Below, piece by piece: positions 3,565 through 32,684 of a DNA stretch of 64,000 nt (positions are counted from its first letter, which is position 1; each line of letters opens with the position of its first letter). Where the stretch lies: positions 62,001 to 126,000 of the forward strand of contig NZ_JABEQJ010000002.1 in the NCBI RefSeq assembly GCF_014174255.1. Reading direction: 5' to 3'. Position numbers and translations under genes: made by a program. Origin of the DNA: Gluconacetobacter sacchari (GTDB taxonomy: Bacteria > Pseudomonadota > Alphaproteobacteria > Acetobacterales > Acetobacteraceae). The notes beneath the pieces were generated by a model. The model made no database searches, had not been told where the DNA came from, and saw nothing but the letters and a program-made list of their open reading frames with translations.

Positions 3565-4656
3565 TCAGCGACGCTTGTGTGCCGCCTCATCCTCCTTGTG
3601 CTGCGTCGCCTGGTGCTGGGCGAACGACTGGTCGGCTTTCTCGATCTGTCGCTCAAGAGCCGTTTTCGGCGCGGTCTTCACGTCCTGAGACGACCCTCCC
3701 AGCGTCATCTCCGGCTCCAGCTTCTGCTCCTGTCCCCTGTCCTCGTCGGGGTTGCGGGACAACTTCGCGGCGTCACGCTGCCGGTCCAGTTCGCCCTGTG
3801 GCAGGATGTGCGCGGCTTCCCGGCCCAGGAATTCAGCGTCGGACCGGCCCTGTTCGCGCTCGTCGGGCTGCTGACCGATGTGGGGGCCGGGCGGGGTCAG
3901 TTCGCGATCACGAGACTGCCCGGCGCGGCGCTCGTGATCCTCGTTGAAAGATTCGTTGGCCTCCTGCTTCTGATCACGGGCGTCACGCATCTCTGCAAGC
4001 CGGTCTTTGAGTTCATCCGCGTTGGGTCGCCGGTCGATTTCCTGCTCGACCTCCTTGACGTTATCGCGCGCGTCCTGGGCGAAATGCCGTTCCTCGACGG
4101 TGCGCCAGTCGTCGGTCAGGCCCCGCGCATCAGCCACGGTCCTGGCACGCATCACCGCATCGTCGGCCTCTCGGGCCTCGCCCTGCGCGTCGTTCTTCAG
4201 GTCGAAGGAGGGCTTGTCGGGCGATTTGATCAGCGCATCGATGTAGGGGCTGTTCGATGCATCCAGCCGCTCATTGTATGTTTTCCGGAGATCGTCGTCG
4301 CTCATTCCGATCAGCGACTGCCAGTCTCGTTTCGTCGCAGAATCGTCCGGCAGTTTGTCGGCCATGTCAGCGACATCGCGGATATGCCGTTCGCGCTTGA
4401 CTTCCGCCTTGTCGATTGCTTCAGCCAGGTAGCCGTCGCAATCCTGAGAGTATTTGTCCCACAGACCGGCCTCTGCCAGCAGATCGCGGTCGGACATTTT
4501 CGCGTAGTTCTCGTTACGCTCATCAGCCGATGCCGGTGCGGAGTCCGCGCCAGGGAACCGCCGGCTGAGAACAATGTTGTTTCCGGTCGTCCGCAGGGCG
4601 CTCTGTTCCCGTTCCTCAGCAGCAAGTTCTTCAGCAGTGCGTTCCATTTTATTCAT
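3565..4656 (-). CDS. Charged helical protein with the shared C-terminal tail
   Basis: A 363-residue, very hydrophilic protein with no signal peptide or membrane helix. At about residues 176-186 it has the segment VADARGLTDDWR, which recurs in the upstream gene 4750-5376 (GDARGITDTWR). Its C-terminus (about 333-352) reads ALERQIEKADQSFAQHQ followed by a basic end. The same tail closes three other proteins of the element (4750-5376, 30724-31239, 31230-32684). It lies 93 bp downstream of 4750-5376, so the two are probably one operon and distant paralogs. A tail of this kind could be a transfer signal or a docking motif, but that is inference. Confidence 0.6.
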   Translation of the reverse strand: MNKMERTAEELAAEEREQSALRTTGNNIVLSRRFPGADSAPASADERNENYAKMSDRDLLAEAGLWDKYSQDCDGYLAEAIDKAEVKRERHIRDVADMADKLPDDSATKRDWQSLIGMSDDDLRKTYNERLDASNSPYIDALIKSPDKPSFDLKNDAQGEAREADDAVMRARTVADARGLTDDWRTVEERHFAQDARDNVKEVEQEIDRRPNADELKDRLAEMRDARDQKQEANESFNEDHERRAGQSRDRELTPPGPHIGQQPDEREQGRSDAEFLGREAAHILPQGELDRQRDAAKLSRNPDEDRGQEQKLEPEMTLGGSSQDVKTAPKTALERQIEKADQSFAQHQATQHKEDEAAHKRR

Positions 4657-4749
4657 CCATTGTCTTTACCGTCAGCATCATCGCCGCCGGTTACGACGAA
4701 GCCCCGTGTCGAGGCCCCCTCGAAACCAGCAGGGAAGTCGCCTCGCCGG

Positions 4750-5376
4750 TTATCGGGTGACCGCCCGTTTCTCATTTCGCTGGTCAGTCTGATGGCTGGC
4801 GTAAGCGCGATCCGCCATATCGATCTGACGTTCGAGCGACGTTTTCCGCGCGCCAGCAATGGGCCGGTATGGAATCCCTGGCCTCGGCGGCAGAACGGAC
4901 GCCCTCTGTTTCGCTCCCTGTGCCTGCTGCCGTCCGCTAGAATCCTGTCGGGTCGGCACCTGCACATTTGTAGCCGTCTCCGGAATCCGCGTATCTGAAG
5001 CGGCCTTGTCCTGGCGCCAGGTGTCCGTGATCCCACGCGCGTCGCCGACCGCTAATGCTCGCAGATGTGCCCGGCTCGGGAATGGCTCGCCTGGCTTGGC
5101 CGAGAACATCCGGTCATCGATTTCTTTTTGAAGCCGATCCGCCGGCATTGAGAAAAGAGCCTCGTAATCTTGACGGCTTTCCGTCTCGTGCCCTTTGGTC
5201 TTCACCATGAAATGCAGGGAATACCGCTCGTCCGCGCGTTCTTTCTGTGCCTGCTGCGGCGAGAACAGGTCGGCCGGGGCGGTGTCGGCAAAACCGACGT
5301 CAGCGTCGCTCACTTTCTGGAAGTGCCGCCGATACGTCTGTTTCAGGATGTCGTCTTCGTTGAATGACACGATCAT
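4750..5376 (-). CDS. Charged protein with the shared C-terminal tail, paralog of the next gene
   Basis: A 208-residue soluble protein. Residues of about 110-125 match a segment of the downstream gene (VGDARGITDTWR against VADARGLTDDWR). Both end in the LERQI..AD..YA.HQ tail, here at about 180-199, after a Pro/Gln-rich linker. The ATG at 5376 lies directly on its only Shine-Dalgarno-like sequence (GGAGA). A GTG at 5370 has better spacing and may be the true start. The function is unknown. The shared pieces with the neighbour argue for duplication followed by divergence of the middle parts. Confidence 0.6.
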   Translation of the reverse strand: MIVSFNEDDILKQTYRRHFQKVSDADVGFADTAPADLFSPQQAQKERADERYSLHFMVKTKGHETESRQDYEALFSMPADRLQKEIDDRMFSAKPGEPFPSRAHLRALAVGDARGITDTWRQDKAASDTRIPETATNVQVPTRQDSSGRQQAQGAKQRASVLPPRPGIPYRPIAGARKTSLERQIDMADRAYASHQTDQRNEKRAVTR

Positions 5377-5411
5377 TCTCCGTATATTTGCCGGCGTGTT
5401 GTTCGCTCGGG

Positions 5412-5816: not shown

Positions 5817-8603
5817 TCAGGCGGCGAGGTCGATCACGTCGATCGTGTGACCGCCGGCGCGCTGGACATAGGCAAGGGCGAAATTGGAGCCCTGCTTGAT
5901 GTCCGTGGCGGTGAAAAGCGGCTTGTTTTCAACGCCATGTCCGCGCATTTCGCGCTCTTTGTCTTCCTGGCGCCAGTAGGCGTCCTTGATCGATCCGGTC
6001 ACAGCGTCCGCGTTGTCGCTGTGTTTGTTCGCGTAGTATCGCAGGATGAATCTCGGATCGAACCGCTTGAGCGGCCGCATCTGATGGGTTTCCAAGCCGG
6101 GCTGGGCCGGACGGAGGCTGATCTGTTCAGCGCCGGTCAGGAATGGAACCGGCAGGTCCGGGAACTCGATCTCGCGCTGCCCCTGGGTCTCGAAATATTC
6201 GTCATCGACCACCAGACCACGCAAGGTCTCGCCGGCCATTTTCTGGAAATATTCGAGCGTTTCCTGCTCTTCGATGCGGAGACAGACCTTGGTGCGCAGG
6301 TTGTTCAGGAGGTCCTGCGTGTGCTTCTCACCGAGCCTCTTCTGCAATGATGGCAGGCCCTGCGTCGCCGCAACCATGAAGACGCCGGTGCTTCGTGCGA
6401 TATTGAAGAACTCAGCATCGGATTCGCTGCCGCCCTTGGTCGCCAGCATCTGGAACTCATCGACGAGCAGGGCCACCGACTGCCGTTTCGCGGCCTCCGG
6501 ATCGGCGATCTGGCGTTTACGGGCTGCGATAAACAACCTCGTTTTCAGCCACACCGCCACCACCTGGCCGACGGTGCCCCATTCACTCTCGCCGATGGCG
6601 ACGGCGAGAATCCCGCCGTTCAGGGCATAATCGACGTCGGTGATCTGGTCGGGCGGGAGCAGGCCGGAGGCGAAACGGGCTGCGACCGGTGGGGCGCCCG
6701 AGAATTTTCCGGTGACGCTCGACACGTTTGCGATGATTCCGGACCGGGTGTCCTGGGCCATTTTCTTCCACTCGCCGAGCGCATAATCGCCGGAGATCGC
6801 GACCTCGCGGCTGTTGATGAGGTCGCCCAGTTCCTGGTCCTTGCCGCTGTCCGCAATGAGTTTTCCGTGCGCCGCAATGCGCCGGAATGCTGCATCGAGC
6901 GCATCAGGGTTGGTTGCGAGGTGCGCGATGCCCTGAAGGCTCCAGGGGCGGAAGTTTTTCCAGGTCGCGTCGGAGTCATCCGAATCATCGCCCTGGTCCG
7001 CTCCCTCGGCAGCGGCAGGTTGAGCGGCAGGCGGCTCATCGAAATCGCCCGACGACAGGAGGTCTTCCCATGACGCCGACGCATCGGACACCGCATCGTC
7101 AACCTCCGCTGCGTCAGGTTCTTTGGCGCTCTCGGGAAGCGGCACGATCTTTTCGAGAACGCTCGCGATCACTGCCGAGTGATACACGATGATGCTGGCC
7201 TGCTCTGACCAGAAAACGTCCTCTTTTTCGCCGATTACCTGCGCCGACACCGTTTTCAGCATCGTTGCGACTTCGAGAGGGGTCATGCCCGCAACCAGGT
7301 TCACGCCGTAATGACCGTCGTCCGTTCCCAGCACACGGAGATCGCCACGGCCCGCCAGTTCCGGCAATGAAATCAGGTCTTTATACAGGACCCCCTTGCC
7401 GTCGGTGATGTAGCCGCCGATCCGGCGAGGGGGCGTGCCATCGGTCGGCTTGTCCCACGTCGCGCCGAAAATGCGCCGGGCCATCGGCTGGAGGAACGCG
7501 CGGGTTTTGCCTTCGCCGGTGCCTCCGAAAACGATGACGTGCTGGCGGATGGATTCCGCATCGAGCGCGACGTCCTGACCGACACCTGGCGACCGCATCG
7601 AACCACGGGCGCGCGCGATGCCGGTCGCCACACCGACTTTGATCACCGGCGCATCAGGATTCATCAGGGCCAGATCGACCTGCCTCGCATATGCCTCCTG
7701 CTCGGTGGCGCGGATATCCGCCCGGTTCTTGTATGCGACGATCGCGTCCCGCGTGGGTGTCGCCAGCGCCGACGATGCACGGGCGAAATAAGACTGGAGC
7801 CCGCGCACGACGTTGAACAGGGCCAGACCGGGGGCCATGACCGCCGCTGCAAGCAGGGCCAGGCCGAGGGTGCCGGCGGCCGAGACAGCGGTCGTGATGA
7901 TGGCGTCTGCATACCACGCGATCTGAGGGATCAGCGCGTGCAGTTCACCCGAGCGCGCCCAGTCCGGGTAAGGGAGCGCACTGTGCAGGCCGGTCAGGCA
8001 GACAGAGAGCAGGGCCGCCGCCGCGAAGACGACAGCCATGCCGGCGGAGTAGCGGACAGACCGTTGAATCTGGGTGCGCGCGATTGTCGAGATTGCGTCG
8101 ATCGTCAGATGGCGCCAGGCGAGCCAGGTCACTGGGATACCGCCGGGGAGCCGCCCATCCCAGGTCGGGGGGCGCACGAGATCGTCGGGGATGTTGCGAT
8201 ACAGCCAGCGGTAGCGATCCTCCGGCCACGTCGCGTTTGCGGCGGCGCGGATATCGCCGTCCAGGAGAGGATTGCCCGTGCCCGCTGTCCGGGCTGCGAG
8301 CCATTTGTCCAGGCGTGCGGGCTCGCAGAATGCGTCGATGCGGCTGGTCACGCCGTGGGGGATCAGGCGGTCGATCAGGCGGCTCCACAGTCGGCCTGCG
8401 ATCCGCCGGGGCGCGCGAGCGGTGCGCACGGTCAGACGGCCCAGCAGGGGGACGAAACATGCGACGGCCGCGAACAGGGCGCCGCCGACAACGACCTCGC
8501 CGAACGAGGACATGATCGAGTAGGGCATCAGCGTCGAAGCCAGCGCCGTCGTGCTGTCGAGGCTTGCCAGATTCCGCGCGAGGTTCTGCTGAAACAAATC
8601 CAT
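5817..8603 (-). CDS. Type IV secretion coupling protein (VirD4/TraD-type ATPase)
   Basis: A 928-residue inner-membrane ATPase expected to hand the relaxase-DNA complex to the mating pore. Hydrophobic segments near residues 25-45, 145-165 and 190-225 form the N-terminal membrane region. The P-loop GGTGEGKT is at about 360-367 and the Walker B segment LLVDEFQML at about 708-716. A conserved LNNLRTKVCLRIEEQET segment follows before the C-terminal domain. An acidic insertion (about 510-560) is unusual. The ATG at 8603 has GGAGAG about eight bases upstream; the open frame continues to 8780 but would overlap the small gene at 8677-8829. Lipoprotein and membrane-protein genes follow the same strand, suggesting a transfer operon. 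Confidence 0.85.
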   Translation of the reverse strand: MDLFQQNLARNLASLDSTTALASTLMPYSIMSSFGEVVVGGALFAAVACFVPLLGRLTVRTARAPRRIAGRLWSRLIDRLIPHGVTSRIDAFCEPARLDKWLAARTAGTGNPLLDGDIRAAANATWPEDRYRWLYRNIPDDLVRPPTWDGRLPGGIPVTWLAWRHLTIDAISTIARTQIQRSVRYSAGMAVVFAAAALLSVCLTGLHSALPYPDWARSGELHALIPQIAWYADAIITTAVSAAGTLGLALLAAAVMAPGLALFNVVRGLQSYFARASSALATPTRDAIVAYKNRADIRATEQEAYARQVDLALMNPDAPVIKVGVATGIARARGSMRSPGVGQDVALDAESIRQHVIVFGGTGEGKTRAFLQPMARRIFGATWDKPTDGTPPRRIGGYITDGKGVLYKDLISLPELAGRGDLRVLGTDDGHYGVNLVAGMTPLEVATMLKTVSAQVIGEKEDVFWSEQASIIVYHSAVIASVLEKIVPLPESAKEPDAAEVDDAVSDASASWEDLLSSGDFDEPPAAQPAAAEGADQGDDSDDSDATWKNFRPWSLQGIAHLATNPDALDAAFRRIAAHGKLIADSGKDQELGDLINSREVAISGDYALGEWKKMAQDTRSGIIANVSSVTGKFSGAPPVAARFASGLLPPDQITDVDYALNGGILAVAIGESEWGTVGQVVAVWLKTRLFIAARKRQIADPEAAKRQSVALLVDEFQMLATKGGSESDAEFFNIARSTGVFMVAATQGLPSLQKRLGEKHTQDLLNNLRTKVCLRIEEQETLEYFQKMAGETLRGLVVDDEYFETQGQREIEFPDLPVPFLTGAEQISLRPAQPGLETHQMRPLKRFDPRFILRYYANKHSDNADAVTGSIKDAYWRQEDKEREMRGHGVENKPLFTATDIKQGSNFALAYVQRAGGHTIDVIDLAA

Positions 8604-8676
8604 TGTCGTATCTCTCCATAGAGTGTGCGGTGACCGGAGCGGTCGATGCCGCTCCGGCTCGATGGGGCGGGTTGGG

Positions 8677-8829
8677 TCAGCCCATGTTTCCGCTGACCAG
8701 AGCCGCGATGCGGACGTTCGTCGAACGGGCGTCGTATGCCGCGGCGGCGCGACCCCAGGCGACCGTTCCGGCCGACCCAACGGCGCCGGTGATGACGATG
8801 GCGATTGCAGCGGCGATGATGATTTTCAT
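8677..8829 (-). CDS. Small membrane or secreted protein
   Basis: A 50-residue protein starting MKIIIAAAIAIVITGAVG, with one hydrophobic helix and an Ala/Arg-rich tail. The start at 8829 is preferred to 8859 because the hydrophobic segment then begins right after the initiator. It sits between a lipoprotein gene (8883-9323) and the coupling-protein gene on the same strand, with gaps of 53 and 73 bp, so it is probably part of the same transfer operon. No family is recognised. Confidence 0.5.
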   Translation of the reverse strand: MKIIIAAAIAIVITGAVGSAGTVAWGRAAAAYDARSTNVRIAALVSGNMG

Positions 8830-8882: not shown

Positions 8883-9323
8883 TCAGGTCCGCTTCGGACG
8901 GAGATCAGCGGCCAGCCCCTTCGCGCAGGCTTCGTGACGAAGAGCAGCCAGGCGGCGGTCGGGACGGGCCGAGGCGTGGAGGGCGGCTTCCTCGCGGCTG
9001 ATGCAGACGTTCAACCCAGTGCGGATTGTGGGCGCATCGCTCGGCTGCATTTCGGCGAGTTCGAGCAGAGCGGCATCGACGGCATCCGCGTTCTGGCGGG
9101 CGCCCACATAGTTCGCGGCGGTGTCGGGAACGGACATGATGCGGTCGTTGATGAACTGGCCGATCAGATGCGGCTGTGCGGTCGCGCTGGTGTCGTCATT
9201 CAGCGTGATCGAGGGCAGCCCATCGACATGGACCGGCCCACAGGCGGACAGAGCCAGCAGGGTTCCCAGGCTGTATGCTGTCGCGATCAGGCGACGGGTT
9301 GAGCGGTAATGACTTGAGAACAT
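8883..9323 (-). CDS. Lipoprotein of the transfer operon
   Basis: A 146-residue protein with a signal peptide ending in a lipobox L-S-A-C; the Cys at about residue 28 should be lipidated. The mature part is mixed and has one further Cys pair (C-I-S near 107 and a Cys near 133). Size, lipobox and position between conjugation genes suggest an outer-membrane lipoprotein of the transfer apparatus, comparable in role to DotD/TraH or VirB7-type proteins. No specific family match can be claimed. Its start lies only four bases after the stop of the upstream gene 9328-10026, a sign of translational coupling. Confidence 0.55.
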   Translation of the reverse strand: MFSSHYRSTRRLIATAYSLGTLLALSACGPVHVDGLPSITLNDDTSATAQPHLIGQFINDRIMSVPDTAANYVGARQNADAVDAALLELAEMQPSDAPTIRTGLNVCISREEAALHASARPDRRLAALRHEACAKGLAADLRPKRT

Positions 9324-9327
9324 TGTC

Positions 9328-10026
9328 TTATTCCATCTCGGTCATGCCCGTGAGCAGATCGCGGACGCATGTGCGGTTGAAATCGAGCAGATCGAGTTGA
9401 GCGCTGCCGCGAACGATGTGATCGGGGGCTGCTGCGCGCAGTTTTGCGAACATCGCCTCCCGCCGGCGGCCACACGCTTCGTAGCCATTGGTTACTCGAC
9501 TGCTGATTGTTGGATTTGGATCATTGACGAGACCGGTCATGATCTCGTCGATCTTGCGGCCCATGGCAGCGCCCTGAACGGTGTTCTCAGGCCGGCTCAT
9601 GCGGCCAATCGAGGCCAGAGCAGCGGTCACCGCCGGAGAGGACACTGGGACGGCCGGCGCAGCGACCGGGGCTGGGGCGGCGGACTGAGTGGCCGGTGCC
9701 GAAGTCGAAGACGCCTGCGCTGCCGATGCGGCCTGAGCCTGGGCCTGGGCCTGGGCCGCATGTTTCCTGGCCTCGGCGGCGGCGAGGGCGGCCTGGGCGC
9801 GGGCATCGGCCGCCCGCTGATACACGATCTCGTCAGCAGTGAATGCACGATCGAACCACGCCGGCATCGTCAGCGCATGGCCGCCGACGCCGGAGATGGC
9901 AGAGAGCGCGAGGACGATACCGGCGCCGTAGGAGACCAGGGCGGGCGTGTAGAACGGCCGCATTGCCGCCCTGACACGGTGCCCGGCGACGTGGCCGGGC
10001 GTGATCAATTTTTGGAACTCCTGCAT
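9328..10026 (-). CDS. Membrane-anchored protein with Ala/Gln-rich linker
   Basis: A 232-residue protein with one membrane helix at about residues 30-50. It is followed by an Ala/Gln-rich stretch (Q-A repeats at about 85-105), a Pro/Ala/Ser linker (about 105-135) and a globular C-terminal domain with two Cys. A single N-terminal anchor, an extended linker and a periplasmic domain are typical of envelope-spanning parts of secretion machines, but I cannot assign a VirB or Dot name. It is the first gene of a tight minus-strand group running to 5546. Confidence 0.5.
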   Translation of the reverse strand: MQEFQKLITPGHVAGHRVRAAMRPFYTPALVSYGAGIVLALSAISGVGGHALTMPAWFDRAFTADEIVYQRAADARAQAALAAAEARKHAAQAQAQAQAASAAQASSTSAPATQSAAPAPVAAPAVPVSSPAVTAALASIGRMSRPENTVQGAAMGRKIDEIMTGLVNDPNPTISSRVTNGYEACGRRREAMFAKLRAAAPDHIVRGSAQLDLLDFNRTCVRDLLTGMTEME

Positions 10027-13455: not shown

Positions 13456-13797
13456 ATGACGCTCGCATCATCTGACCGCCTCGCCGATCCTGATGGCCGT
13501 GCCTGGCTCCGGGCCGCACTCAAGACGGTAAACGCCCCTCTGCCGGTCGAGACAACTCCGGAAGACCTGGTGCATTACGTCCTGGACGATCATCCCGACC
13601 TCCATGCCGCCGTTCGGATCGGCGCGCTGATCGATGAGGTTCCCGGCCGGACCATCGCCAACCTCGTTTCCCGACACGTCTTCAGTTACAATGAGTTGAA
13701 TGCCGCAATGGAGCGCATCCGCTCCGTTGGCATCGATGTGACGGGGACGGAAAATGGGCGCTGGGTCTCAGAGATGGCAGGGTTCGAGGTGGTTTGA
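13456..13797 (+). CDS. Possible antitoxin-like partner of the AbiEii-type gene
   Basis: A 113-residue soluble protein. The ATG at 13456 is preceded by AGGAGGG eight bases upstream, which decides the start against 13414. The sequence is helical and mildly acidic and is not a typical AbiEi antitoxin, which is longer and has a winged helix. It overlaps the nucleotidyltransferase gene by 44 bp, so the two are translationally coupled. Small first genes in such pairs are often antitoxins, but no direct evidence for that is present here. Confidence 0.5.
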   Translation: MTLASSDRLADPDGRAWLRAALKTVNAPLPVETTPEDLVHYVLDDHPDLHAAVRIGALIDEVPGRTIANLVSRHVFSYNELNAAMERIRSVGIDVTGTENGRWVSEMAGFEVV

Positions 13798-14518
13798 ACT
13801 GCTGCCCGATGCGATCCGCATCCTCGACGCTGCCGGGCATAAGGACTGGACGTTCGGGGGCGGGACGGCTCTCGCGCTCTGGCTTGATCACCGGGTCAGC
13901 TACGACATCGACATATTCACCCGAGGCAGTCTGATCCACCTGACCTCCCAGTTCTGCCCGGAGACCAAGCGTGTGCTGGGAGCCGATGGGCAGTCCCAGT
14001 TTCCGGGCCATTATCTGAAACTGGAACTGGAGGGCGGTGAGATCGATTTCCTGACACCACCCCCGCTGACCCGCAGCCCGACGCAGGAGATGCGCCTCGA
14101 AGACATTCTGGCCCATGCTGACGTGGTGGACGCCGGGCCGGCAGGTGACAGGATCATCAACGTCGAGGTTCCGACAGAAATCCTGACACGCAAGATCATG
14201 TTCCGGGGACAGGGGTTCAAGCCGCGCGATGTGTTTGACCTGGCGGCCTCTCTGCGATGGTCGCCTGATGTCCTCGTGCCAGCCGTCGAGGTGTTCAAGG
14301 TCCAGCCCGATGCTCTCGAACAACTGGGGACCCGGCTGACCATGATGCGGCCCGTTTATGAGAAGCAGGCTCAGGAGGTCATCAATCCGCGTCCTGGATA
14401 CGAATATCTACTGTCAGTCGATGCGATTGACCTAAGCCTTGCCGGAATCAGCCGGATCAAGGGGATGGTGGTCGAGCCTGATCCGGGGCTGGAGCCGGGG
14501 CCGGCTCTATCTCCATAA
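13754..14518 (+). CDS. AbiEii-type nucleotidyltransferase (toxin candidate)
   Basis: A 254-residue protein with the nucleotidyltransferase fold signature FGGGTALALWLDHR (about 33-46) followed by YDIDIF (about 50-55). This is the G-G-[ST]..D-x-D arrangement of the AbiEii/DUF1814 family. In AbiE and MenT systems such enzymes modify tRNA and arrest growth, giving phage resistance. The substrate here is unknown. The start at 13754 lies inside the upstream gene; GGACGGA is about six bases before it. Downstream come a Fic gene and an XRE regulator, so this part of the element looks like a small toxin/defence group. Confidence 0.7.
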   Translation: MGAGSQRWQGSRWFELLPDAIRILDAAGHKDWTFGGGTALALWLDHRVSYDIDIFTRGSLIHLTSQFCPETKRVLGADGQSQFPGHYLKLELEGGEIDFLTPPPLTRSPTQEMRLEDILAHADVVDAGPAGDRIINVEVPTEILTRKIMFRGQGFKPRDVFDLAASLRWSPDVLVPAVEVFKVQPDALEQLGTRLTMMRPVYEKQAQEVINPRPGYEYLLSVDAIDLSLAGISRIKGMVVEPDPGLEPGPALSP

Positions 14519-14550
14519 CGGACTGTCTCTTTGACGGGCGAGGGCGGAAT

Positions 14551-15875: not shown

Positions 15876-18800
15876 TCACCGCCCACGGACCATCCCCTCC
15901 GCCCGGTGCCGTGCCGCCTCAGCTTCGGCCCGGCGCCTGGCCTCGGCCGCAACCTTTTCCGCCTCAGCCGCCGCTTTGGCCGACAGCCCGTCCGTCACCG
16001 CCGCCATCGTTTTTTCCGCCGGAGCCACCCTGTCCGGCGCGGGCACATTCTCATTGCCCCACGCCTCCTTCAGCGCTTCCATCCGCTCTTCAGCCGACTT
16101 TGGCGCTTCCTTGATACGCTCCAGAGCCACCCGCCGCATCTCGATGTCGTTCCGAACAGCCTCCTGAGCAGACGGCGCGGATGCCCATGCGTGCCGGTCC
16201 ATCACGAAGTCGGCAGCGTTGCCCTTTTCGCGGCTTTGCTGTCCCTCGTAAACGATTTGCCGGACCACCGTCTCGCGATCGACGGCATCCCCGACATCGC
16301 CCCGGTCGGCCGCATCCGGGGCCTCCAAGTGGCCCTCGTCGCTGATCGTCGCAGTCACTCCGTCGCGCCGGATGCGGTTGTCCCTGACATTCAGGCCGAT
16401 GCGCGTGACATCAGTATAGAGACGGCAGTCCTCGCGGTGTCTGGTCATCCCCACGTAGAGCGATTCCCTGTCCAGCCCGGCCGCGTTGAGAACATACGCC
16501 CTGTCCACCGACGCACCCTGGGCGGAATGCGCCGTGACGGAATATGCATGCTGGACACGCAACGGTCTGGTATCCGGCTCATTATCCTCGGCCAGCGACA
16601 GCCGCTCTAGGTCACTCCATCTCGTTGTCACCTCGAATCCGCGCTCAAACACTAGAGTCACGACAGGCTGGCCATCCGCATTGTCCCGACAGACGTCGCG
16701 AACAACCGCAACATCGTTGTTCCGGATCATGTCCTGCCCAGCCTTGATGTTCTCGCCGAAAATTATTCGATCTCCGGCCGCCAGCGCCATCATTCCGACC
16801 ACAGGTTTCCGTCCCCGGCTCAGTGCCTCGATCTCAATATCGTCTCCAGCAATCCGTCCCTCCTGACGCAGCAGGGCACGCAGATCGGAGTTCAGGTTCC
16901 GGACCTCATTATGTGTCCGGGCCAGGACCATGCGCGTTCCGGCCGGGTTCCGACGAACGTCATCGAGATAGTCCCCGATCAGGCGGCCCCGTAGTTCCTG
17001 ACCTTCGCCGATGACGATCCGTCCGTGGCTATCATAAGCGCGAACAGCTTTCTCGATATCACCCGCCGCGAAGTCCCGGCTAGCCTGCCGCTGCCAGTCT
17101 GTTCTCTGTCGCCGGATTTCATCGATGCGTTGCGCTCCCAACGTTTCCGCCAGAAGCCGCATTGGCGACCCAGGGGCTACCGGCTTCAATTGCCGAGTGT
17201 CGCCGGACAGGATCACCTTCGCGCCGACCCTGGCTGTCTCTCGGAGCAGTTCTCGCATTTCCGCTGTGCCGACCATTCCGGCTTCATCGAGGATCACGAC
17301 ATCGTTCCGGGTGAGCTTGATTGCCTGTCCGTGCCGGTCGTCGGCAATGCGGTTCAGGAATGACCTCAAGACCGCCGCTTGCGCCTGATCGGTGTTCGTG
17401 TCCTTGGCGATAACCGATACCGCCTGGTGGCTCGGCGCGGTCACCCAGACACGCATTCCAACATCCCGAGCGGCCTCGGCGGCGGTCCCCAAGGAGAATG
17501 ATTTTCCAGTCCCGGCTGAGCCTTCGACGACAGATACACCGTCACGATTCAGCGCGTGCCTTACCAATGCCGCCTGCTCGTCAGATATGGTCCCCCGGCC
17601 GGCAATGGCCCGGTCAACGATGTCACGCGATACGAATTCCCGCTCACCACGCCTGGCGAGTGCGATCCGGACGATCTCCCGTTCCGCGTCGATCATCTCG
17701 GGCGTTGCGTAAAACCGTTCGTTGGTCCTTGCGCTGACACCTCCCGTCAACTCGATCAGGTGTCCCGATCGGCGGGCGGCATTGGCCTGCTCGATGGCGT
17801 GATCGACGGTGACGCCGCGTCCCTGATGATGCTCCAGGACCGTTCCGATCAGGCGTCGATCCTCGATCACCGATTCCGTCGATGTCAGTTCCGTCAGTGC
17901 CCGCTGGAATGCCGTCTGTTTGTCCTTCGGTTCGTCCTTGGCGATGGAAGATGCAGCCAGCGCGGATTCCCAAACCGACTCCCGTGTCCAGCCTTCCTCG
18001 CGCATCTCTTTGTCCCACCGCTCACGCAGTTCGGCGCGCGTCGGCATGTCTGCTTTCGATCCCCTTGTCGCCATTGAGATGTTAGCCGCCGCTTCGCGAT
18101 GGATTTCTGTGTCGATTCCCATCTTGGAGGCTGCGGCTTCGATAGCAGCGCGGCGCTTCGAGAATTTCTGTTCCAGGACCTGCGGAACGCCGAGGACGCG
18201 GAAGTTCCGCTTGACCTTAACCGTTGTTACCCCCAGTTCCCGTTCGAGTCCTTGAGCCAATGCCAAGCGATACACTGCGCCCATCGCCTGCTGATGCCGA
18301 AGCAGTTCGAAATTATCGAGCGTCCCTGTCGTGCCGTCAGCCCGACGACACACGTTCGCTAATACCGCATGATCGTGGAGTTGGGGATCGCCAGCGCGGC
18401 TGTGACCCTGCTTCGGCTTGTGAGTGTCCTTCGGATCGCTGGGGCGGCTTGTTGTGTGCTGGAATACCGCAACCATAATCTCTGCTGGTATCTCCTTAAT
18501 CTCCCCGTTCTTGCCACGGCGAGTTACGATGAGCCCATTCTTGTGTGCGTATTCCAGCGCAAAGATAGTTGCCTGACTCTGCGCCCGCTCGATTTTCTCA
18601 CGCTGAATGTCAGTCCCGGCGGCCCACAAAATTGACACCGATTTTGGTGCCGCGAATTGCAGATCGTAGCCCACCCGTCTCTTCTTGCCATGTTGGACGA
18701 TCGATTCCTTCGTGAGCGGATCGCGGCCCATAGAAAGGTTCCGAAAATCTTTGGAATCGACCTCCGTGCCATTCATCACGAACGGGAGCGGCTGTCCCGG

Positions 18801-19061
18801 TTGGAGTCGTGCATTCGTCCACCAAGTGCCCGGCCTCTCGCCGGTTCCATTGTCGAGGTAGTAGGCCGCGCGGTCCCGGCCAGACCAGTCGCCTCGTTTC
18901 CGGCCCGTGGTGGATTTCTGTCCCGATGACGCTGCGGGGCTGTCTCCGGAGCCTGCCAAAATCTGTTCCCCGGCAGCCGTAACGGCAGCCTCGTCGGTCA
19001 AGCTCTCGTCCACGGATTCAATATAGTACTCAACGTCGGACAGGGGCGTGCAGGTGAACAT
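15876..19061 (-). CDS. MobF-family conjugative relaxase-helicase (TraA/TrwC-like)
   Basis: A 1,061-residue protein that should nick the transfer origin and unwind the transferred strand. N-terminal Tyr residues (VEYYIES, about 11-17) are candidates for the catalytic tyrosines. GYDLQFAAPKSVSIL (about 130-145) and LHDHAVLAN (His 229 and 231) form the metal-binding relaxase core. The RecD-like helicase half has GSAGTGKS at about 514-521, ILDEAGM near 595, and the late motif YSVTAHSAQGAS near 895. The C-terminus is an Ala/Glu/Arg-rich helix. AGGA lies nine bases before the ATG at 19061. A shorter copy of the APKSVSIL region survives as a fragment at 39291-39620. Confidence 0.9.
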   Translation of the reverse strand: MFTCTPLSDVEYYIESVDESLTDEAAVTAAGEQILAGSGDSPAASSGQKSTTGRKRGDWSGRDRAAYYLDNGTGERPGTWWTNARLQPGQPLPFVMNGTEVDSKDFRNLSMGRDPLTKESIVQHGKKRRVGYDLQFAAPKSVSILWAAGTDIQREKIERAQSQATIFALEYAHKNGLIVTRRGKNGEIKEIPAEIMVAVFQHTTSRPSDPKDTHKPKQGHSRAGDPQLHDHAVLANVCRRADGTTGTLDNFELLRHQQAMGAVYRLALAQGLERELGVTTVKVKRNFRVLGVPQVLEQKFSKRRAAIEAAASKMGIDTEIHREAAANISMATRGSKADMPTRAELRERWDKEMREEGWTRESVWESALAASSIAKDEPKDKQTAFQRALTELTSTESVIEDRRLIGTVLEHHQGRGVTVDHAIEQANAARRSGHLIELTGGVSARTNERFYATPEMIDAEREIVRIALARRGEREFVSRDIVDRAIAGRGTISDEQAALVRHALNRDGVSVVEGSAGTGKSFSLGTAAEAARDVGMRVWVTAPSHQAVSVIAKDTNTDQAQAAVLRSFLNRIADDRHGQAIKLTRNDVVILDEAGMVGTAEMRELLRETARVGAKVILSGDTRQLKPVAPGSPMRLLAETLGAQRIDEIRRQRTDWQRQASRDFAAGDIEKAVRAYDSHGRIVIGEGQELRGRLIGDYLDDVRRNPAGTRMVLARTHNEVRNLNSDLRALLRQEGRIAGDDIEIEALSRGRKPVVGMMALAAGDRIIFGENIKAGQDMIRNNDVAVVRDVCRDNADGQPVVTLVFERGFEVTTRWSDLERLSLAEDNEPDTRPLRVQHAYSVTAHSAQGASVDRAYVLNAAGLDRESLYVGMTRHREDCRLYTDVTRIGLNVRDNRIRRDGVTATISDEGHLEAPDAADRGDVGDAVDRETVVRQIVYEGQQSREKGNAADFVMDRHAWASAPSAQEAVRNDIEMRRVALERIKEAPKSAEERMEALKEAWGNENVPAPDRVAPAEKTMAAVTDGLSAKAAAEAEKVAAEARRRAEAEAARHRAEGMVRGR

Positions 19062-20498: not shown

Positions 20499-21260
20499 AT
20501 GACACAGTCATCAAAGCGGCTCGTCCTCGTCGTCTCGGGCAAAGGCGGCGTCGGCAAAACGACCTTCTCCCGCCTGCTGACAGACGTGTATCGCGAGAAC
20601 AACACGAAGGCCGCGATCTTCGACGCCGACGGACAGATTGGCGGCCTGGCGCGCGTCTATCACAAGGCGGGCGTGGCCTTCTATGACCTCCGGCAGGACG
20701 CAGACAGGGCAACGCTATTGAACTCGATTGCGTCGGACGCGGACGTGATTCTCCACGATCTGCCCGGCGGTTCGCTGCCCGAGATCAGCAAGATCGTTGA
20801 CGGCGACGGGGAAAGCGTCGGCGGATTCCTGGCGGCCCTGCGCGAGAACGATGTCCGCCTGACGTTGGTGCATGTCATCGATAACGAGATCGAGAGCGCA
20901 CAGAGCGTCGGTCAATATCTCGATTCCTTCGGCACGGATTCCGTGGATCATGTCGCCGTCCTGAACATGCGCGAAAGCCGTGATCTGAAGGCCGACTTCC
21001 CTTACTGGTTCGGCTACGAGGTCGATGGCAAGCGCCGCCATGGCAAGGCGCGCGATCGTCTGATTGCCGCCGGCGGTGTCGAGATCACCATGCCCGCGAT
21101 GCAGGCCGGGACGCGCGCCAAAATCAACGCGCTGAACCTTCGCTATTCGGAGTGCGCCCGACATCCCGAACTGACGATCACCGAACGATCGATCGCGTCC
21201 CAGTTCCTGCGCGGATTCCGGAAGGCGGTTGAACCGGCCGGCGGTTTCCTCGGGCTGTGA
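20499..21260 (+). CDS. ParA/MinD-type ATPase (partition or relaxosome, StbB/VirC1-like)
   Basis: A 253-residue P-loop ATPase with the deviant Walker A GKGGVGKTTF (residues 14-23), the A' segment AAIFDADGQIGG (about 39-50) and Walker B VILHDLPGG (about 84-92). This places it among ParA-like proteins. The sequence style is closer to StbB and VirC1 of conjugative plasmids than to chromosomal ParA. Such proteins segregate plasmids or bring the relaxosome to the transfer machinery. No ParB-like gene follows; the next gene (21275) is a membrane protein, and the DNA-binding candidate at 19814 may be its partner. Confidence 0.8.
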   Translation: MTQSSKRLVLVVSGKGGVGKTTFSRLLTDVYRENNTKAAIFDADGQIGGLARVYHKAGVAFYDLRQDADRATLLNSIASDADVILHDLPGGSLPEISKIVDGDGESVGGFLAALRENDVRLTLVHVIDNEIESAQSVGQYLDSFGTDSVDHVAVLNMRESRDLKADFPYWFGYEVDGKRRHGKARDRLIAAGGVEITMPAMQAGTRAKINALNLRYSECARHPELTITERSIASQFLRGFRKAVEPAGGFLGL

Positions 21261-22180: not shown

Positions 22181-22398
22181 AGCGCGACGGCAAGCTCGGC
22201 GCCGGCCGGCGCGGGACCCGCGCAGCAATCACGGCCGCATACAGGGCGCGGCGGATCGCAGCCGGCTGGGTTGATTTCCGCCGCTATGTGCCTGGCGAAA
22301 TCCGGGGCGAGATCGGGAAATCAGTCAGCCGGAAAATTCGGCGCTGGCAACTCAAACAGAACAAACCGAACGACAACGACAAGACGGACGGAGAATGA
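22177..22398 (+). CDS. Small basic protein
   Basis: A 73-residue, strongly basic protein (many Arg and Lys, ending in an acidic hexapeptide). It starts with GTG at 22177, overlapping the previous stop as GTGA, which implies translational coupling. Four bases separate its stop from the start of the large exoprotein gene. It may bind nucleic acid or act as a secretion accessory; this is not established. Confidence 0.45.
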   Translation: MKRDGKLGAGRRGTRAAITAAYRARRIAAGWVDFRRYVPGEIRGEIGKSVSRKIRRWQLKQNKPNDNDKTDGE

Positions 22399-22402
22399 CA
22401 TC

Positions 22403-25400: not shown

Positions 25401-27538
25401 TCACCGCCCCAACGACGGTGACGGCGGCGGCGTCGGACGGGATCGATACCTCGGCCGCGCTGGCCGGCATCGGGCCATGGCATGGCTATTCGACGGCCGA
25501 TGCGGGGACGTATGCGACGTGGGCTGAGGGCGTTGCCGCGCCATGGCACCAGATCACGTATCGGGCTGCGCTCACGGTCGATCCTGCCGCGTTGACGATC
25601 GCGGCCGGGAGCGGATTGAGCGTTTACGGACAGCCCGTTTCTGCACCTGGATACACCGTCAGCGGCTTGGTGAACGGCGACTCGGTTACCGGTGCGACGG
25701 TCGTGAACGGAGCTACGTCGGCGTCAAGCGTCGGGCAGTATGCTGTCGATGTGTCCAGGGCGACCGGTCGCGGGCTCGGGAACTATGTCATCGACTATGT
25801 GTCCGGGAACTGGCAGATCACGCCTGCAACGCTGACGGCAACAGCCGGTGACGGGTCGAGCGTTTATGGCCAGATGCCGACTGTGGCCGGTGACGGATTC
25901 ACCTCGAAGGGGCTGGTCAACGGCGACACGATCTCGGGCGTCACCCTGACGACACCAGCGACGAAGACCAGCAGTGTCGGCACGTATGCGATCAATGCAT
26001 CGGATGCGACAGGAACCGGCCTCGGCAATTACGACATCTCGTATGCACCTGGCACGCTGACGATCACACCTGCGCCGCTGACGATCACGGCGGGCAGCGG
26101 GTCGAGCGTGTATGGTCAGGCGCCGGCGACTGCTGGGTTTACGGCGACTGGGCTCGTCAACGGCGATGCTGTCTCCGGAGCAACCCTGACGACGGCGGCG
26201 ACGGCGACATCGAGCGTCGGACAGTATGCAATCAATGCAGCCAACGCGACTGGGACCGGTCTGTCGAACTATGACATCTCCTACGTGCCCGGCACCCTGA
26301 CGATCGATCCGGCGGCGCTGACGGTTGTGGCGAATGACCAGGCGATGACCTACGGCAACGCGCCGTCGCTTGGGAACGCTGCATTCACCGCATCAGGGCT
26401 CGTGAATGGTGACAGCATCAGTGCCGTTGATCTGTCCACGACGGCCACGAAGACCAGCGCTGTCGGGACCTACGGGATCACGGCCGCAAACGCGGTTGGC
26501 CAGGGCCTGTCGAACTATGACATCGCCTATGTGCCCGGCACGCTGACGATCGATCCGGCAGCGTTGACGGTCGCGGCAAATGACCAGACCAGCACCTATG
26601 GCAACGCGCCAGCCCTGGGCACGACGGCCTTCACGGCTTCAGGCTTGGTCAATGGTGATGCGGTTTCTGGCGTCAACCTGGCTACGGCCGCGACCGGGGC
26701 ATCGTCGGTCGGCACGTATGGCATCACCGCGTCCGGAGCAACGGGAACCGGCCTGAGCAACTATACCGTCACCTATGCGCCGGGCACGTTGACGATCGAT
26801 CCGGCAGCGCTGACGGTGACGGCGCTCGACCAGACCAGCACATACGGGCAGGCTCCGGCCTTGGGCACGACGGGCTTCACGGCGCAGGGCCTGGTCAACG
26901 GCGATGCGATCTCCGGGGTCAGGCTGACGACGGCGGCGACAGGAGCGTCCAGTGTCGGCGACTATGTGATCGATGCGTCGTCAGCGACCGGGCACGGGCT
27001 GGGGAATTATGCGATCACCTACCAGGGTGGCACGCTGACTGTCGATCCGGCGACGTTGACGGTGACGGCGGGCAGCGGGAGCAGCGTTTATGGCCGGGCG
27101 TCGGAGTCACCCGGCTATCAGGTCCTGGGGCTCGTGAATGGTGACAGCGTGACATCGGTCGATGTCACGAAGTCGGCGACCATCGAGTCCGGAGTCGGCA
27201 GTTACACGACGACGGCATCCAACGCGACGGGGCAGGGCCTGTCGAACTACACGATCGGTTACCAGAGCGGGACCTGGACGGTGACGCCTGCGCCGCTCGG
27301 CGTGACAGCCAGCGACCAGACCTCGACCTATGGTCAAACTCCACTGTCGCCAACCTCTCCGTCCGTCATTGCGGTCGCGGCCGTCACGCCGACCCTGCCG
27401 CCGGTCACGACGGTCGCGCAGGCACCTGGGGCTGAGGTTCAGCAGGAGAAACTGTCGGTCAGCCCGACCCTCTCGTGCAGTTCGTCGGGCAGCCTCGTGG
27501 GCGAAACCCAGATGACCTGCCAGACGCGCGGACGGTGA
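22403..27538 (+). CDS. Filamentous haemagglutinin-like exoprotein (TpsA) with GLUG and MBG/YDG repeats
   Basis: A 1,711-residue secreted adhesin candidate. The start at 22403 follows GGAG and gives a signal peptide (MFRNSRILTALLLSTALASV, ending near LAG). Residues of about 35-260 are the TPS secretion domain (NPNGIVVGPGG and VVNRGTIRAANGNVVLIGQ are typical). A long GLUG-type region follows, with YAGGLVG and SYATGTV units (about 590-930), then seven MBG/YDG-type repeats of about 81 residues (from about 1,060) and a truncated eighth. The end contains a Cys pair (about 1692 and 1706), as in HMW1-type proteins held on the cell surface. It should be exported by the TpsB at 10632-12398. It is the largest cargo gene. 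Confidence 0.85.
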   Translation: MFRNSRILTALLLSTALASVRASMALAGTLPTGGSFVAGSGQIATSGSAMTINQTSARGVIDWRGFSIGSGNFVQFNNGAGATMNRVTGAQMSQIDGKLGATGSVFLINPNGIVVGPGGQVVTNGSFVASSRDISDGQFMAGGSMTASGRSSSAVVNRGTIRAANGNVVLIGQSVTNEGVIVTGHRTAAMVAADSVVLSETGGPSGIYVAAGSTGRGDVTNAGRIQAAAVELASAHGNVYALGGNHTGAIQATGTREVDGEVYLTAADGTVDVGGRITAHNTDGSGGQIVANGHDVAVAAGAVMDAGSTVAGRAGGTILVGTSGHGQNLAQTVKLADGASLTAGGKGAGLIETSGHHVSTGALTVDAGRGGTWLTDPDDLTIDSAAAGTIQTALNAGTNVSEQTTATGTSGAGSVAAGNGDINVNAPISWTGGATLTLDAYRNLNVSAPITVQTGGGVVIQTGGDDIFNPGGSLTYATSGSGSLSVNGSPYALVWDRAGLESIGTAGTISGNYALAKDVDLGNVAFTPIAHTGNFGGTFDGLGHSVDNLLVNDTTHALDGLFGAVSGTIANVTVSGLIDGRGGPSAYAGGIAGQNNGLIRDSHSSATVYGYYVGGLSGGSASGTGRIERSTASGDVYALDGSPYAGGLAGYAASVTDSSASGNVTTTSSGWTYAGGLVGEVTGAISGSFATGNVTAPGSNERVGGLVGLTNGAISDSYATGTISAGKDAYAGGLVGQSSGDVTSSYATGTVTAGDESYAGGLAGIVRAVTDGRASGNVTGGEDSTVGGLVGKSSGLISDAIAVGNVTAGTYGSAGGLAGENIGGISNSYATGTVTASGAADGAGYAGGLVGDNEAAVSDAYATGAVTGLVNADIGGLVGKAGGGMSGTLSDVYATGALTGQAGQIGGVIGKMSGQPTITDAYFDTTTTGATASVGVTDSGVTASGITGLTTEQFANGSATLAGGSSVWVSGAPYQVLAALPYIVVTGSPGAHETYGSASVTAPTTVTAAASDGIDTSAALAGIGPWHGYSTADAGTYATWAEGVAAPWHQITYRAALTVDPAALTIAAGSGLSVYGQPVSAPGYTVSGLVNGDSVTGATVVNGATSASSVGQYAVDVSRATGRGLGNYVIDYVSGNWQITPATLTATAGDGSSVYGQMPTVAGDGFTSKGLVNGDTISGVTLTTPATKTSSVGTYAINASDATGTGLGNYDISYAPGTLTITPAPLTITAGSGSSVYGQAPATAGFTATGLVNGDAVSGATLTTAATATSSVGQYAINAANATGTGLSNYDISYVPGTLTIDPAALTVVANDQAMTYGNAPSLGNAAFTASGLVNGDSISAVDLSTTATKTSAVGTYGITAANAVGQGLSNYDIAYVPGTLTIDPAALTVAANDQTSTYGNAPALGTTAFTASGLVNGDAVSGVNLATAATGASSVGTYGITASGATGTGLSNYTVTYAPGTLTIDPAALTVTALDQTSTYGQAPALGTTGFTAQGLVNGDAISGVRLTTAATGASSVGDYVIDASSATGHGLGNYAITYQGGTLTVDPATLTVTAGSGSSVYGRASESPGYQVLGLVNGDSVTSVDVTKSATIESGVGSYTTTASNATGQGLSNYTIGYQSGTWTVTPAPLGVTASDQTSTYGQTPLSPTSPSVIAVAAVTPTLPPVTTVAQAPGAEVQQEKLSVSPTLSCSSSGSLVGETQMTCQTRGR
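25588..27350 (+). repeat. Seven tandem MBG/YDG-type coding repeats plus a partial eighth
   Basis: Inside the exoprotein gene, units of about 243 bp begin with a sequence coding for (A/P)LT(I/V).A.(D/G)(Q/S)..YG and contain GLVNGD and (T/Q)GL(S/G)NY. Units 4 to 6 (AND/ALDQTSTYG type) resemble each other most. The eighth unit stops after its first 18 residues and runs into the Pro-rich C-terminus. Confidence 0.8.
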
Positions 27539-30718: not shown

Positions 30719-30723
30719 CCATT

Positions 30724-31239
30724 TTATAGAGACCGCCCGTCGGTCTTTGATTCTGATCCAGAGCGAGTCTGGTGCTTCGTGTAGGACCGGTCCGCCGCCG
30801 CGATCTGCTTGTCGAGCGGCGTCTGGTCTGCCGCCCGCACCCTAGACGGGGATGCTGAGGTTGGCGGCCCGGAAACCTTGTTGGGGGTGGCCATGGGACC
30901 AGCCTTCGGTGCCGGCTTCAACGGCGGCGGCTTGTTGATCGGCGCCAGCTTTTTCGGAGGCAAGGGTGGCGGTGGTTTCGGTGCCGGACCAGGTGGTGGC
31001 GGCTTGATGCTGGGCTCATCTGGAAGCGGAATTTCCGGCTCGCCCTTGTGTGTGACCGCTGGGGTAACCTCTTGTTTATGCGGGTCGTTACCATGCTGGT
31101 CGCATGGGCTCTTCGTCGCCGGGCTGCTGATGTTCGATTGTGTCTGCTTCTGGACCTCCGCGCCGGCTGCGTCCGCCATCGAGGACGGGACGGCCCTGAT
31201 CGCGGACACAAACGACAGCAACGATGACATTATCGACAT
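30724..31239 (-). CDS. Proline-rich protein with the shared C-terminal tail
   Basis: A 171-residue protein. The N-terminus (about 1-22) is mildly hydrophobic. The middle (about 70-125) is a Pro/Lys repeat region, and the C-terminus carries PLDKQIAAADRSYTKHQ (about 141-157), the tail also seen in the neighbour 31230-32684 and in 3565-4656 and 4750-5376. GGAGAAG lies six bases before the ATG. It overlaps the end of the primase-like gene by 10 bp, so the two are co-translated, and the overlap joins two proteins with the same tail. The long Pro-rich spacer suggests an extended molecule that exposes the tail. Confidence 0.6.
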   Translation of the reverse strand: MSIMSSLLSFVSAIRAVPSSMADAAGAEVQKQTQSNISSPATKSPCDQHGNDPHKQEVTPAVTHKGEPEIPLPDEPSIKPPPPGPAPKPPPPLPPKKLAPINKPPPLKPAPKAGPMATPNKVSGPPTSASPSRVRAADQTPLDKQIAAADRSYTKHQTRSGSESKTDGRSL

Positions 31240-32684
31240 TGTGGCTTCTCCGCCGTTTTCTGTGCGTTTTCAGCCTGATGCCGCGCATACGACCGGTCCG
31301 ATGACGCGATCTGTCGCTCCAGGGGCGTGGGTCGTGCCGGCGAGACCATGTTCCGGGCCGGCAGCACGCCACCGCGCGGTGGCAAGGTCGCCCTCGGCGC
31401 CGGCTGATCCGATGCACATCCAGGCCGCTCGACCGGCGCCGAGGTGATCGCTCGCGATGGCGGGCTTGGGGCCGGACCGGATGCGACCATGGTCTTGACC
31501 GGGGGGACGCCACCGCGCGGGGGCAGGACCGTCCTTGGTGGCGGTTGATCCGGATCGCGGCTGGCGCGCTCGGCCATGTGCTGGGCTATGGCATCACGAC
31601 GGGCCTCGATATTACCAACGACATCCGATGCGCAGAATTTGAGTGCATCCCTCATCGTCTTCTCACAAAAGACGCTCTCTGCATGCGTGATCTCGATGAA
31701 TGGGAATTCGACTGACCACGCCTTACCTTCCACGTCGCGCGCGTGCTTGGGCTTCATGTTTCGATACCCGGCCAGGCGTATTCCATGGCGCAGTCCGCTG
31801 ATGCGCGGATCGCCGTGTTTCTGGTTCAGGTCTGTAAAAAACTGGTTCAGGCCACGACGATCGAACATCTGATCATCAGTTCCGCTGGTGACGCCCTGGC
31901 GCCGGAACGGTTCTTTCGGCACTCGGAAAATGATCTGGTGACTGTTCCATGATGTTTGCAATGCGAGGCATGGTTTGTAGCCAGCCTCAATCCACGATTT
32001 CACCGGCAACTCAGTATCCGATCCGGTGATGGGTCGGGCATCGTCGATCAAGACATAGAACGCATGGTTGTCCATCGGCGTGATCAGGACGTTCATGCCC
32101 TCACTGTTCTTCTTTCGTAAGAGGCCGACCGAGTTCTGGATGTCTTTGGTGTTGAAGAACTTCTCGCGTTTCTCGCCGTTTTCGGTGCGCTTGCCGACGA
32201 GATAGCCGAACTTCGTCTTCATCTTTCCGGGCTTGTCTTCCCGATCCGACGCCGCATTTTCCAGGTCGGATTCTGTTACGGTGTCGGTTTCGGCATTAGC
32301 CTGGATCGTTTCGTCCGCCTGCTTGAACATCAAGGTGAGCCTGGCCTCGCTGCACCCCAGCGCGTCCATCTGCTGTTTGACCAGCTTGTTGATGACCGCT
32401 TCGGAGCCGAACAGGTCGCGGCTCATCTCGCCTTTGCCGACATTCCGTTCGTGCGTTCGATCATCTCCAAGATTCTCGTGGAGCCAGCCAAGCGACTGAT
32501 TGTAATCGCATTTCCGTGCCCACATGACCGCATCGATAGCGTTGTCGGCCGGCCGCAGGTCGCCGACGCGCTTCGGGAGAGGGGCCGATATCGACAGGTC
32601 ACCGGCCGCAATCAGAGCGGCATGGACGCCGGCAGGATCGAGCCGGCGCAAGCGGGCGACTTCTTCAGGGGTGAGATCGGCCAT
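31230..32684 (-). CDS. RepB-type primase-like protein with the shared C-terminal tail
   Basis: A 484-residue protein. The ATG at 32684 has TGGAG nine bases upstream; the frame is open to 33032 but overlaps the gene at 32707-33087. Residues of about 190-345 resemble RepB-type archaeo-eukaryotic primase domains: FYVLIDDA with its acidic pair, then LQTSWNSHQIIFRV and GLRHGIRLAGYRNMKPKH. Such primases start plasmid replication. After a Pro-rich linker with two copies of LPPRGGV the protein ends in PLERQIASSDRSYARHQ (about 454-470). With the helicase at 36432-39107 and the iteron-like arrays it would form a replication module. Confidence 0.65.
   Translation of the reverse strand: MADLTPEEVARLRRLDPAGVHAALIAAGDLSISAPLPKRVGDLRPADNAIDAVMWARKCDYNQSLGWLHENLGDDRTHERNVGKGEMSRDLFGSEAVINKLVKQQMDALGCSEARLTLMFKQADETIQANAETDTVTESDLENAASDREDKPGKMKTKFGYLVGKRTENGEKREKFFNTKDIQNSVGLLRKKNSEGMNVLITPMDNHAFYVLIDDARPITGSDTELPVKSWIEAGYKPCLALQTSWNSHQIIFRVPKEPFRRQGVTSGTDDQMFDRRGLNQFFTDLNQKHGDPRISGLRHGIRLAGYRNMKPKHARDVEGKAWSVEFPFIEITHAESVFCEKTMRDALKFCASDVVGNIEARRDAIAQHMAERASRDPDQPPPRTVLPPRGGVPPVKTMVASGPAPSPPSRAITSAPVERPGCASDQPAPRATLPPRGGVLPARNMVSPARPTPLERQIASSDRSYARHQAENAQKTAEKPQCR

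Follow-up and report, generated by a model that had tools for sequence, protein, structure and literature searches.

The way in which the coupling proteins of type IV secretion systems (T4SS) choose their cargo is not well understood, and reviews, in the passages cited here, describe signals without a common sequence. According to these passages, type IV signals at the C-terminus take the form either of clusters (of charge or of hydrophobic residues) or of large domains, of which XVIPCD is one (PMC10025392). XVIPCD, from Xanthomonas-type bacteria-killing T4SS effectors, is a common C-terminal module needed for VirD4 binding, about 120 residues long, with conserved motifs and a Gln-rich tail; the Agrobacterium VirB/D4 Arg-motif and the Dot/Icm E-block are short C-terminal signals, described as residue clusters (same passages of PMC10025392). 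Plasmid proteins are also moved: the R1162 relaxase/primase carries T4SS signals (PMC10025392; titles cited in PMC8406263), recipients receive the SogL primase of ColIb-P9 and maintenance proteins of F, and several maintenance proteins are co-transferred by the T4SS of the pED208 F plasmid (passages of PMC8406263). The signals of an F-plasmid-related study are C-terminal or internal, and no common motif is named in the passages concerned (PMC11288057). Here, we describe a MOBF element of Gluconacetobacter sacchari, found in a stretch of 64,000 nucleotides (the "window", positions 62,001 to 126,000 of contig NZ_JABEQJ010000002.1), in which four proteins (p1 to p4, Table 1) end in similar tails of about 18 residues. 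Related elements harbor orthologs of p1, p3, and p4 whose tails are unlike those of the window and alike within each element.

The four minus-strand open reading frames (ORFs) listed in the initial annotation of the window are all present, and so is the common tail that it assigned to them: a six-frame scan with a regular expression finds the motif four times in the window, once per protein. The tail is C-terminal in all four, followed as proposed by a charged end; its distance to the C-terminus had been placed at 9-11 residues, and the Gln of the terminal HQ in fact lies 12-14 residues before the stop. Ungapped scores between the tails amount to 65-81, against shuffle maxima of 41-51, and for none of the six pairs is the observed score reached by any of 300 residue shuffles. 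A hidden Markov model (HMM) built from the four tails and searched against the 4.83 Mb genome of the window gives full-length matches only in p1-p4, all on contig C2, and a fifth match of 11 residues (E 0.2).

The bodies of these proteins had been considered unrelated, which holds for five of the six pairs (blastp E 0.9 or worse, or no match). The p1 and p2 bodies, however, are distant paralogs (E 9e-6, 26% identity over 81 residues; 27% when bodies are compared across the elements). The primase-like character of p4 is borne out by a RepB_primase domain (PF16793, E 2.8e-12, 47.4 bits for a curated cut-off of 24.3) and by a weak match to the solved RSF1010 RepB' (3h25, phmmer E 0.027); its only other Pfam match, TetR_C_14, is sub-threshold. 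The p4 ATG lies in frame within a longer ORF starting at 33032, and the genes of p3 and p4 are overlapping neighbours. No Pfam family is found for p1, p2, or p3 at E<=0.1, and none of the four proteins matches the XVIPCD or BID domain models in Pfam, nor PHROG; an NCBIfam search returns a single chance-level match, to p2. The linker before the tail, described at first as Pro-rich or disordered in all cases, is charged and not proline-rich in p1. AlphaFold2 (AF2) models of p2 (mean pLDDT 54) and p1 (mean pLDDT 57) place the tail in a separate helix, residues 180-193 and 333-362, respectively, after a low-confidence stretch. These poor models fit, and do not prove, a short linear motif carried on a flexible linker.

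The sequence of the tail is not fixed, and each element has its own version. In Gluconacetobacter dulcium, all four proteins have orthologs, and their tails are of the window type. Acidomonas methanolica and Acetobacter sp. UBA5411 encode a type IV coupling protein (T4CP) with 76% identity in the aligned region, adjoined by p1 and p2, and a search with the p4 body retrieves orthologs in both (69% and 67%), each followed by a p3 counterpart. Their tails are unlike those of the window, and alike within each element. The Acidomonas consensus is [ST]xLG[KR]AAAxFD, with SALGKAAAYFDRK and SVLGRAAAYFDRK in p1, TALGKAAARFDKL in p3, and TALGRAAAEFDRR in p4; that of UBA5411 is [ST]ALG[KR]M[IV]xAQD, with TALGKMIQAQDNE in p1, TALGKMVAAQDKA in p3, and SALGRMISAQDAE in p4. 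The p2 tails, SPLRQMMTRYQ in Acidomonas and SPLRRMIDEQN in UBA5411, are weaker relatives. A pattern derived from the UBA5411 tails occurs four times in a 73 kb stretch of contig C31, once in each of the four proteins. As to the tandem of Acidomonas p1, a self-repeat score misses it, probably through a length constraint, and an HMM built from its two copies finds both, which is circular.

Tails were compared as 18-residue cores, picked by eye and anchored at [ST]xL. Scores for p1, p3, and p4 reach 35-72 within an element and 9-40 for the same protein between elements. When the tails are dealt among the three elements in all 216 ways, the real arrangement comes first (720, the next 659), and it is also the best of 36 without p2. 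The change is concerted in p1, p3, and p4, p2 clearly matching only in Gluconacetobacter. The bodies of the orthologs are 66-72% identical for p4, 59-67% for p2, and 42-63% for p1 (over 54-235 residues); for p3 the values are 40% between the window and UBA5411 and 49% between Acidomonas and UBA5411. Since p3 of the window and p3 of Acidomonas give no direct body match, their orthology rests on position and on the UBA5411 link. Within elements, the only body match in the three is that of p1 and p2 of the window. Taken alone, the p1-p2 tail match is not significant in UBA5411 (271 of 300 shuffles as good) or in Acidomonas (22 of 300), so the argument is carried by the p3 and p4 orthologs. This distribution gives good support to the mobile C-terminal tag for one shared partner that the initial annotation had envisaged, with p2 as a partial exception.

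Tail motifs of other sequences occur in more distant plasmids that encode a T4CP of the same family. Three Rhizobium plasmids have FAxMADRAxAAA at the end of proteins encoded downstream of the T4CP: R. phaseoli N841 and Rhizobium sp. N1341 have four such proteins each (the first with two copies, and the fourth of N841 being weak), and N671 has three. The tandem of R. phaseoli protein a is reached by 10 of 200 shuffles. Proteins a and b of Agrobacterium Kin002 end in AAAQAAARAKEAIERS (0 of 300 shuffles), and proteins c and d have weaker tails (0 of 300 for c-d, 4 of 300 for b-c, 24-44 of 300 for the other three pairs with c or d). A. fabrum, M. radiotolerans, and K. nataicola display a tandem motif in one protein (0 of 200 shuffles each), the last copy ending 10, 61, and 24 residues before the C-terminus, respectively; the match between the A. 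fabrum a and b tails is equalled by 172 of 300 shuffles. Altogether, the tail is shared or tandem in 12 of the 16 elements examined, which amount to eight lineages because two are from Gluconacetobacter, three are from Rhizobium, and K. nataicola and G225 are near relatives.

Across the 16 elements, 2028 pairs of nearby ORFs on the same strand were surveyed, and 16 pairs pass the thresholds (z>=5, score>=45) with no body match: ten downstream of a T4CP gene, nine of them from Rhizobium, two p3/p4 pairs, and four pairs of small proteins from Kin002 and G. dulcium, which look like whole-protein paralogs. The p1/p2 pair is missed, since an overlapping frame was called as the ORF; an earlier, noisy all-against-all tail comparison missed it as well, with the overlapping frame called there too. 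Searches with the window tail alone mostly yield chance matches because other elements use other tails: 11 of 150 family genomes give a match at E<=0.1, a convincing one only in the genome of the window itself, and tblastn of the p4 tail against PLSDB gives two chance matches only. Separately from these tails, genes that follow the tagged ones in five other elements (L017:23308-24135, L018:26951-28345, L020:24249-24815, L021:17563-18366, and L085:26384-27493) encode proteins, several of them signal-peptide-like, with a short xxDL C-terminus behind a linker rich in proline or alanine; this may be another conserved signal at the protein end. In Agrobacterium Kin002 (L085:27502-28520), a CPDYF motif is common to three consecutive small proteins, apparently tandem paralogs.

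Could the tails result from recent copying of DNA segments, by gene conversion or duplication, and have little function? The distant paralogy of p1 and p2 and the overlap of the p3 and p4 genes would suit such an origin. Within an element, however, identical residues of two tails often have different codons: the figures per pair range from 3 of 11 to 7 of 8 (Acidomonas p1-p3), and 14 of 17 is the value for proteins a and b of Kin002. Such codon use argues against a recent copy, and selection on the protein is its simpler reading. Moreover, tails match between genes ~26-30 kb apart, and the pattern recurs with different sequences in several lineages. Copying, already disfavoured, is thus highly improbable.

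Concerted replacement of the tail on non-homologous proteins suggests one shared partner that varies between elements, and the T4CP is the candidate to which gene order points, both for p1/p2 and for the clusters in Rhizobium and Agrobacterium. From these comparisons of sequence, we propose, with a confidence just short of even, that the tails act as docking or translocation signals, particular to each element, that a single common partner recognises, probably the T4CP; a role as type IV secretion signal is plausible. Each tail of ~18 residues follows a linker, probably forms a short helix, and is succeeded by the charged end. It would let the accessory proteins of the MOBF element (the RepB-type primase p4, p3, p1, and p2) bind the shared partner, most likely the element’s own T4CP. 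Most probably, this would recruit the tagged proteins to the transfer channel; the primase, at the least, would accompany the DNA and begin second-strand synthesis in the recipient, having received its "transfer ticket" from the tail and not from a fusion. A primase among the clients fits the known primases that travel with transferred DNA. The tails would change together as elements diverge because partner and clients must match.

Several observations weigh against this proposal. The score ranges overlap, p3 of Acidomonas and UBA5411 scoring 40 and p1-p3 within Acidomonas 35, and p2 fits the tails of its own element poorly in Acidomonas (-1, -1, 12) and weakly in UBA5411 (10, 22, 30). The repeats of A. 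fabrum, M. radiotolerans, and K. nataicola are confined to one protein instead of being shared by several, and in M. radiotolerans 104 and 61 residues separate the ends of the two copies from the C-terminus. No repeated tail is seen in four of the 16 elements (M. phyllosphaerae, where a self-repeat test was run too, M. oryzae, G667, and Aeromonas). The net charge of the last 25 residues is inconsistent, -6 to +3, with 0 to +3 in eight Acetobacteraceae proteins and -5 and -6 in A. fabrum and K. nataicola. The window relaxase and its relatives inspected here have no tail motif at their C-termini. Known relaxase T4SS signals are larger and internal in the passages of PMC10025392, so a tail on the relaxase is not a strict requirement. 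A likeness between relaxase ends, rich in Ala, Glu, and Arg, and the tails was judged low complexity and dropped.

Linkage of the tail to the coupling-protein gene, which the initial annotation had suggested as a check, is seen for p1 and p2, directly downstream of it, and for the Rhizobium and Agrobacterium clusters; p3 and p4 are ~22 kb from the T4CP gene in the window. The Acidomonas case counts further against the proposal, as the T4CP, p1, and p2 lie on contig C2, and p3 and p4 on contig C16, together with a conventional Trb-type T4SS that comprises its own TraG-type coupling protein, VirB4, and TrbL (genome G037). These T4SS genes, at about 30-40 kb, are ~20-30 kb from p3/p4 (~20 kb for the coupling protein); p3 and p4 may therefore sit on another element. 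A tblastn search with the C16 VirB4 gives no match on positions 1-166000 of the window contig, 1-100000 of G. dulcium C9, or 100001-173372 of UBA5411 C31. In UBA5411 and in the window, all four genes share one contig. For Acidomonas, this leaves two readings: C2 and C16 could be parts of a single element broken where a contig ends, or two separate elements could have matching tails.

This separation, like the relaxases devoid of tail, would suit docking on another partner in the donor: a ParA/MinD-like ATPase, a membrane protein, or the relaxosome. The tails would then place or assemble a transfer-replication complex, with no translocation. Homologs of the ParA-like gene of the window occur in eight of the nine other elements searched, and p4, p3, and a DUF927 protein look, partly by eye, like a replication module. 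On the other side, the tail-sharing cluster of R. phaseoli immediately follows the T4CP gene, with the parA homolog over 20 kb away, and the membrane protein has one short match outside Acetobacteraceae (48 residues, M. radiotolerans). Docking of this kind is rather doubtful, though a serious competitor. A tag for proteolysis, stability, or oligomerisation, by which the tagged proteins would bind each other or a host protease adaptor, is unlikely. The C-terminal position and the low-confidence helix prediction suit it; a host adaptor, however, would not explain element-specific versions, and the motif stands before a charged end, not at the extreme C-terminus.

The T4CP, the partner preferred here, belongs to an uncommon family, with a profile match to IcmO/DotL in the Protein Data Bank (PDB; E 1e-5). 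It is found in 16 PLSDB records (E<=1e-5), in four of 397 family genomes (E<=1e-20), and in two of 385 class genomes (E<=1e-60), the window’s own included; its profile finds no relative in IMG/VR. Ten of the PLSDB records were compared, the other six being two apparent near-duplicates, a second K. nataicola plasmid, and three distant records; around G667, the order-level and family-level search sets are the same 82 genomes. PLSDB types none of the 16 records as conjugative, ten as mobilizable, and six as non-mobilizable. The VirB4 model PF03135, the only T4SS part searched for, has no match on any of seven plasmids. It matches four times in the genome of the window and twice in G. dulcium, always on contigs other than that of the element, and seven times in Acidomonas, once on C16. 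Within the T4CP, an acidic insert before an NFRPW motif has a conserved SW(E/D)DLL core in the four Acetobacteraceae proteins compared; as a lead only, this insert is a possible docking site for the tails.

Table 1. Tagged proteins, their tails, and neighbouring genes of the element in the window.
Feature	Coordinates	Strand	Description	Basis
p1	3565..4656	-	363 aa, helical body, no known family; distantly paralogous to p2	ORF, Pfam, body blastp, low-confidence AF2
p1 tail	3610..3663	-	TALERQIEKADQSFAQHQ	six-frame regex scan
p2	4750..5376	-	208 aa; low-confidence linker after a conserved body; immediately downstream of T4CP gene	ORF, alignment, low-confidence AF2
p2 tail	4789..4842	-	TSLERQIDMADRAYASHQ	six-frame regex scan
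p3	30724..31239	-	171 aa, proline-rich	ORF, orthologs
p3 tail	30769..30822	-	TPLDKQIAAADRSYTKHQ	six-frame regex scan
p4	31230..32684	-	484 aa, RepB-type primase domain and proline-rich linker	Pfam, weak RSF1010 RepB' match
p4 tail	31275..31328	-	TPLERQIASSDRSYARHQ	six-frame regex scan
T4CP	5817..8780	-	type IV coupling protein, TraG-D_C / TrwB_AAD_bind over cut-off; proposed tail partner	Pfam
Lipoprotein-like protein	8883..9323	-	small, upstream of T4CP; conserved in Acetobacteraceae elements	lipoprotein call by eye
Membrane protein	9328..10026	-	apparently single-pass, upstream of T4CP; alternative partner	membrane call by eye
Relaxase	15876..19061	-	MobF/TrwC relaxase-helicase, without tail	Pfam, C-terminus inspected
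ParA/MinD-like ATPase	20499..21260	+	alternative partner	homologs in other elements compared

Other features of the element deserve mention in their own right. It contains a two-partner secretion pair, possibly an adhesin for mating, made up of a FhaC/ShlB transporter (10632-12398, + strand) and a large TPS/MBG/GLUG adhesin (22271-27538, + strand). An Aeromonas plasmid with a related T4CP has a comparable pair in its annotation, and similar genes are recognised by eye in the Acidomonas and UBA5411 elements. An AbiEii-type nucleotidyltransferase gene followed by a Fic protein gene is located at 13754-15426 (+ strand). At 39366-39515 (- strand), ~20 kb from the intact relaxase gene, a fragment of 50 residues is 80% identical to relaxase residues 133-182. 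Upstream of p4, two small overlapping genes (32707-33087 and 33084-33440, - strand) are mutual paralogs (~33% identity).

In a wider sense, MOBF elements of this T4CP family may possess a private, swappable C-terminal address tag, specific to the lineage and borne by up to four non-homologous proteins, a primase included. Changing together with its cognate receptor, it would tie the co-transferred proteins to the element’s own pump and not to that of a rival. This extension is advanced tentatively, at less than an even chance. The natural swap on the same proteins in three elements supplies cognate and non-cognate pairs with which the receptor could be sought, and the tag is a sequence handle for predicting proteins that travel with, or dock beside, mobile DNA. 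No description of a short lineage-specific tag on unlike proteins, swapped in concert, was found in searches of one open-licence library of papers.

Compared with the described systems, the tails resemble XVIPCD in being C-terminal modules common to several proteins; they differ in their length of about 18 residues, their element-specific sequence, and the lack of a Pfam match. Like the Arg-motif and the E-block, they are short and C-terminal; unlike them, they form a recognisable sequence that is replaced in concert between elements, with an inconsistent charge. The pED208 maintenance proteins and p1-p4 are both sets of several proteins encoded by a mobile element, and a common motif is met only in the p1-p4 tails as far as the cited passages go. 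ParA/MinD cargo adaptors offer another parallel, short cargo tags binding one ATPase; the tails would likewise be short tags for one partner, their binding to ParA being hypothetical. Finally, p4, with its RepB_primase domain, joins RepB'/MobA of RSF1010/R1162 and SogL among plasmid primases, the known ones being linked to transfer into recipients in the passages cited. RepB-type primase domains also reside inside the relaxases of IncQ2-type plasmids. MobA-type proteins combine primase and relaxase in one fusion, whereas p4 is a separate protein with a swappable tail.

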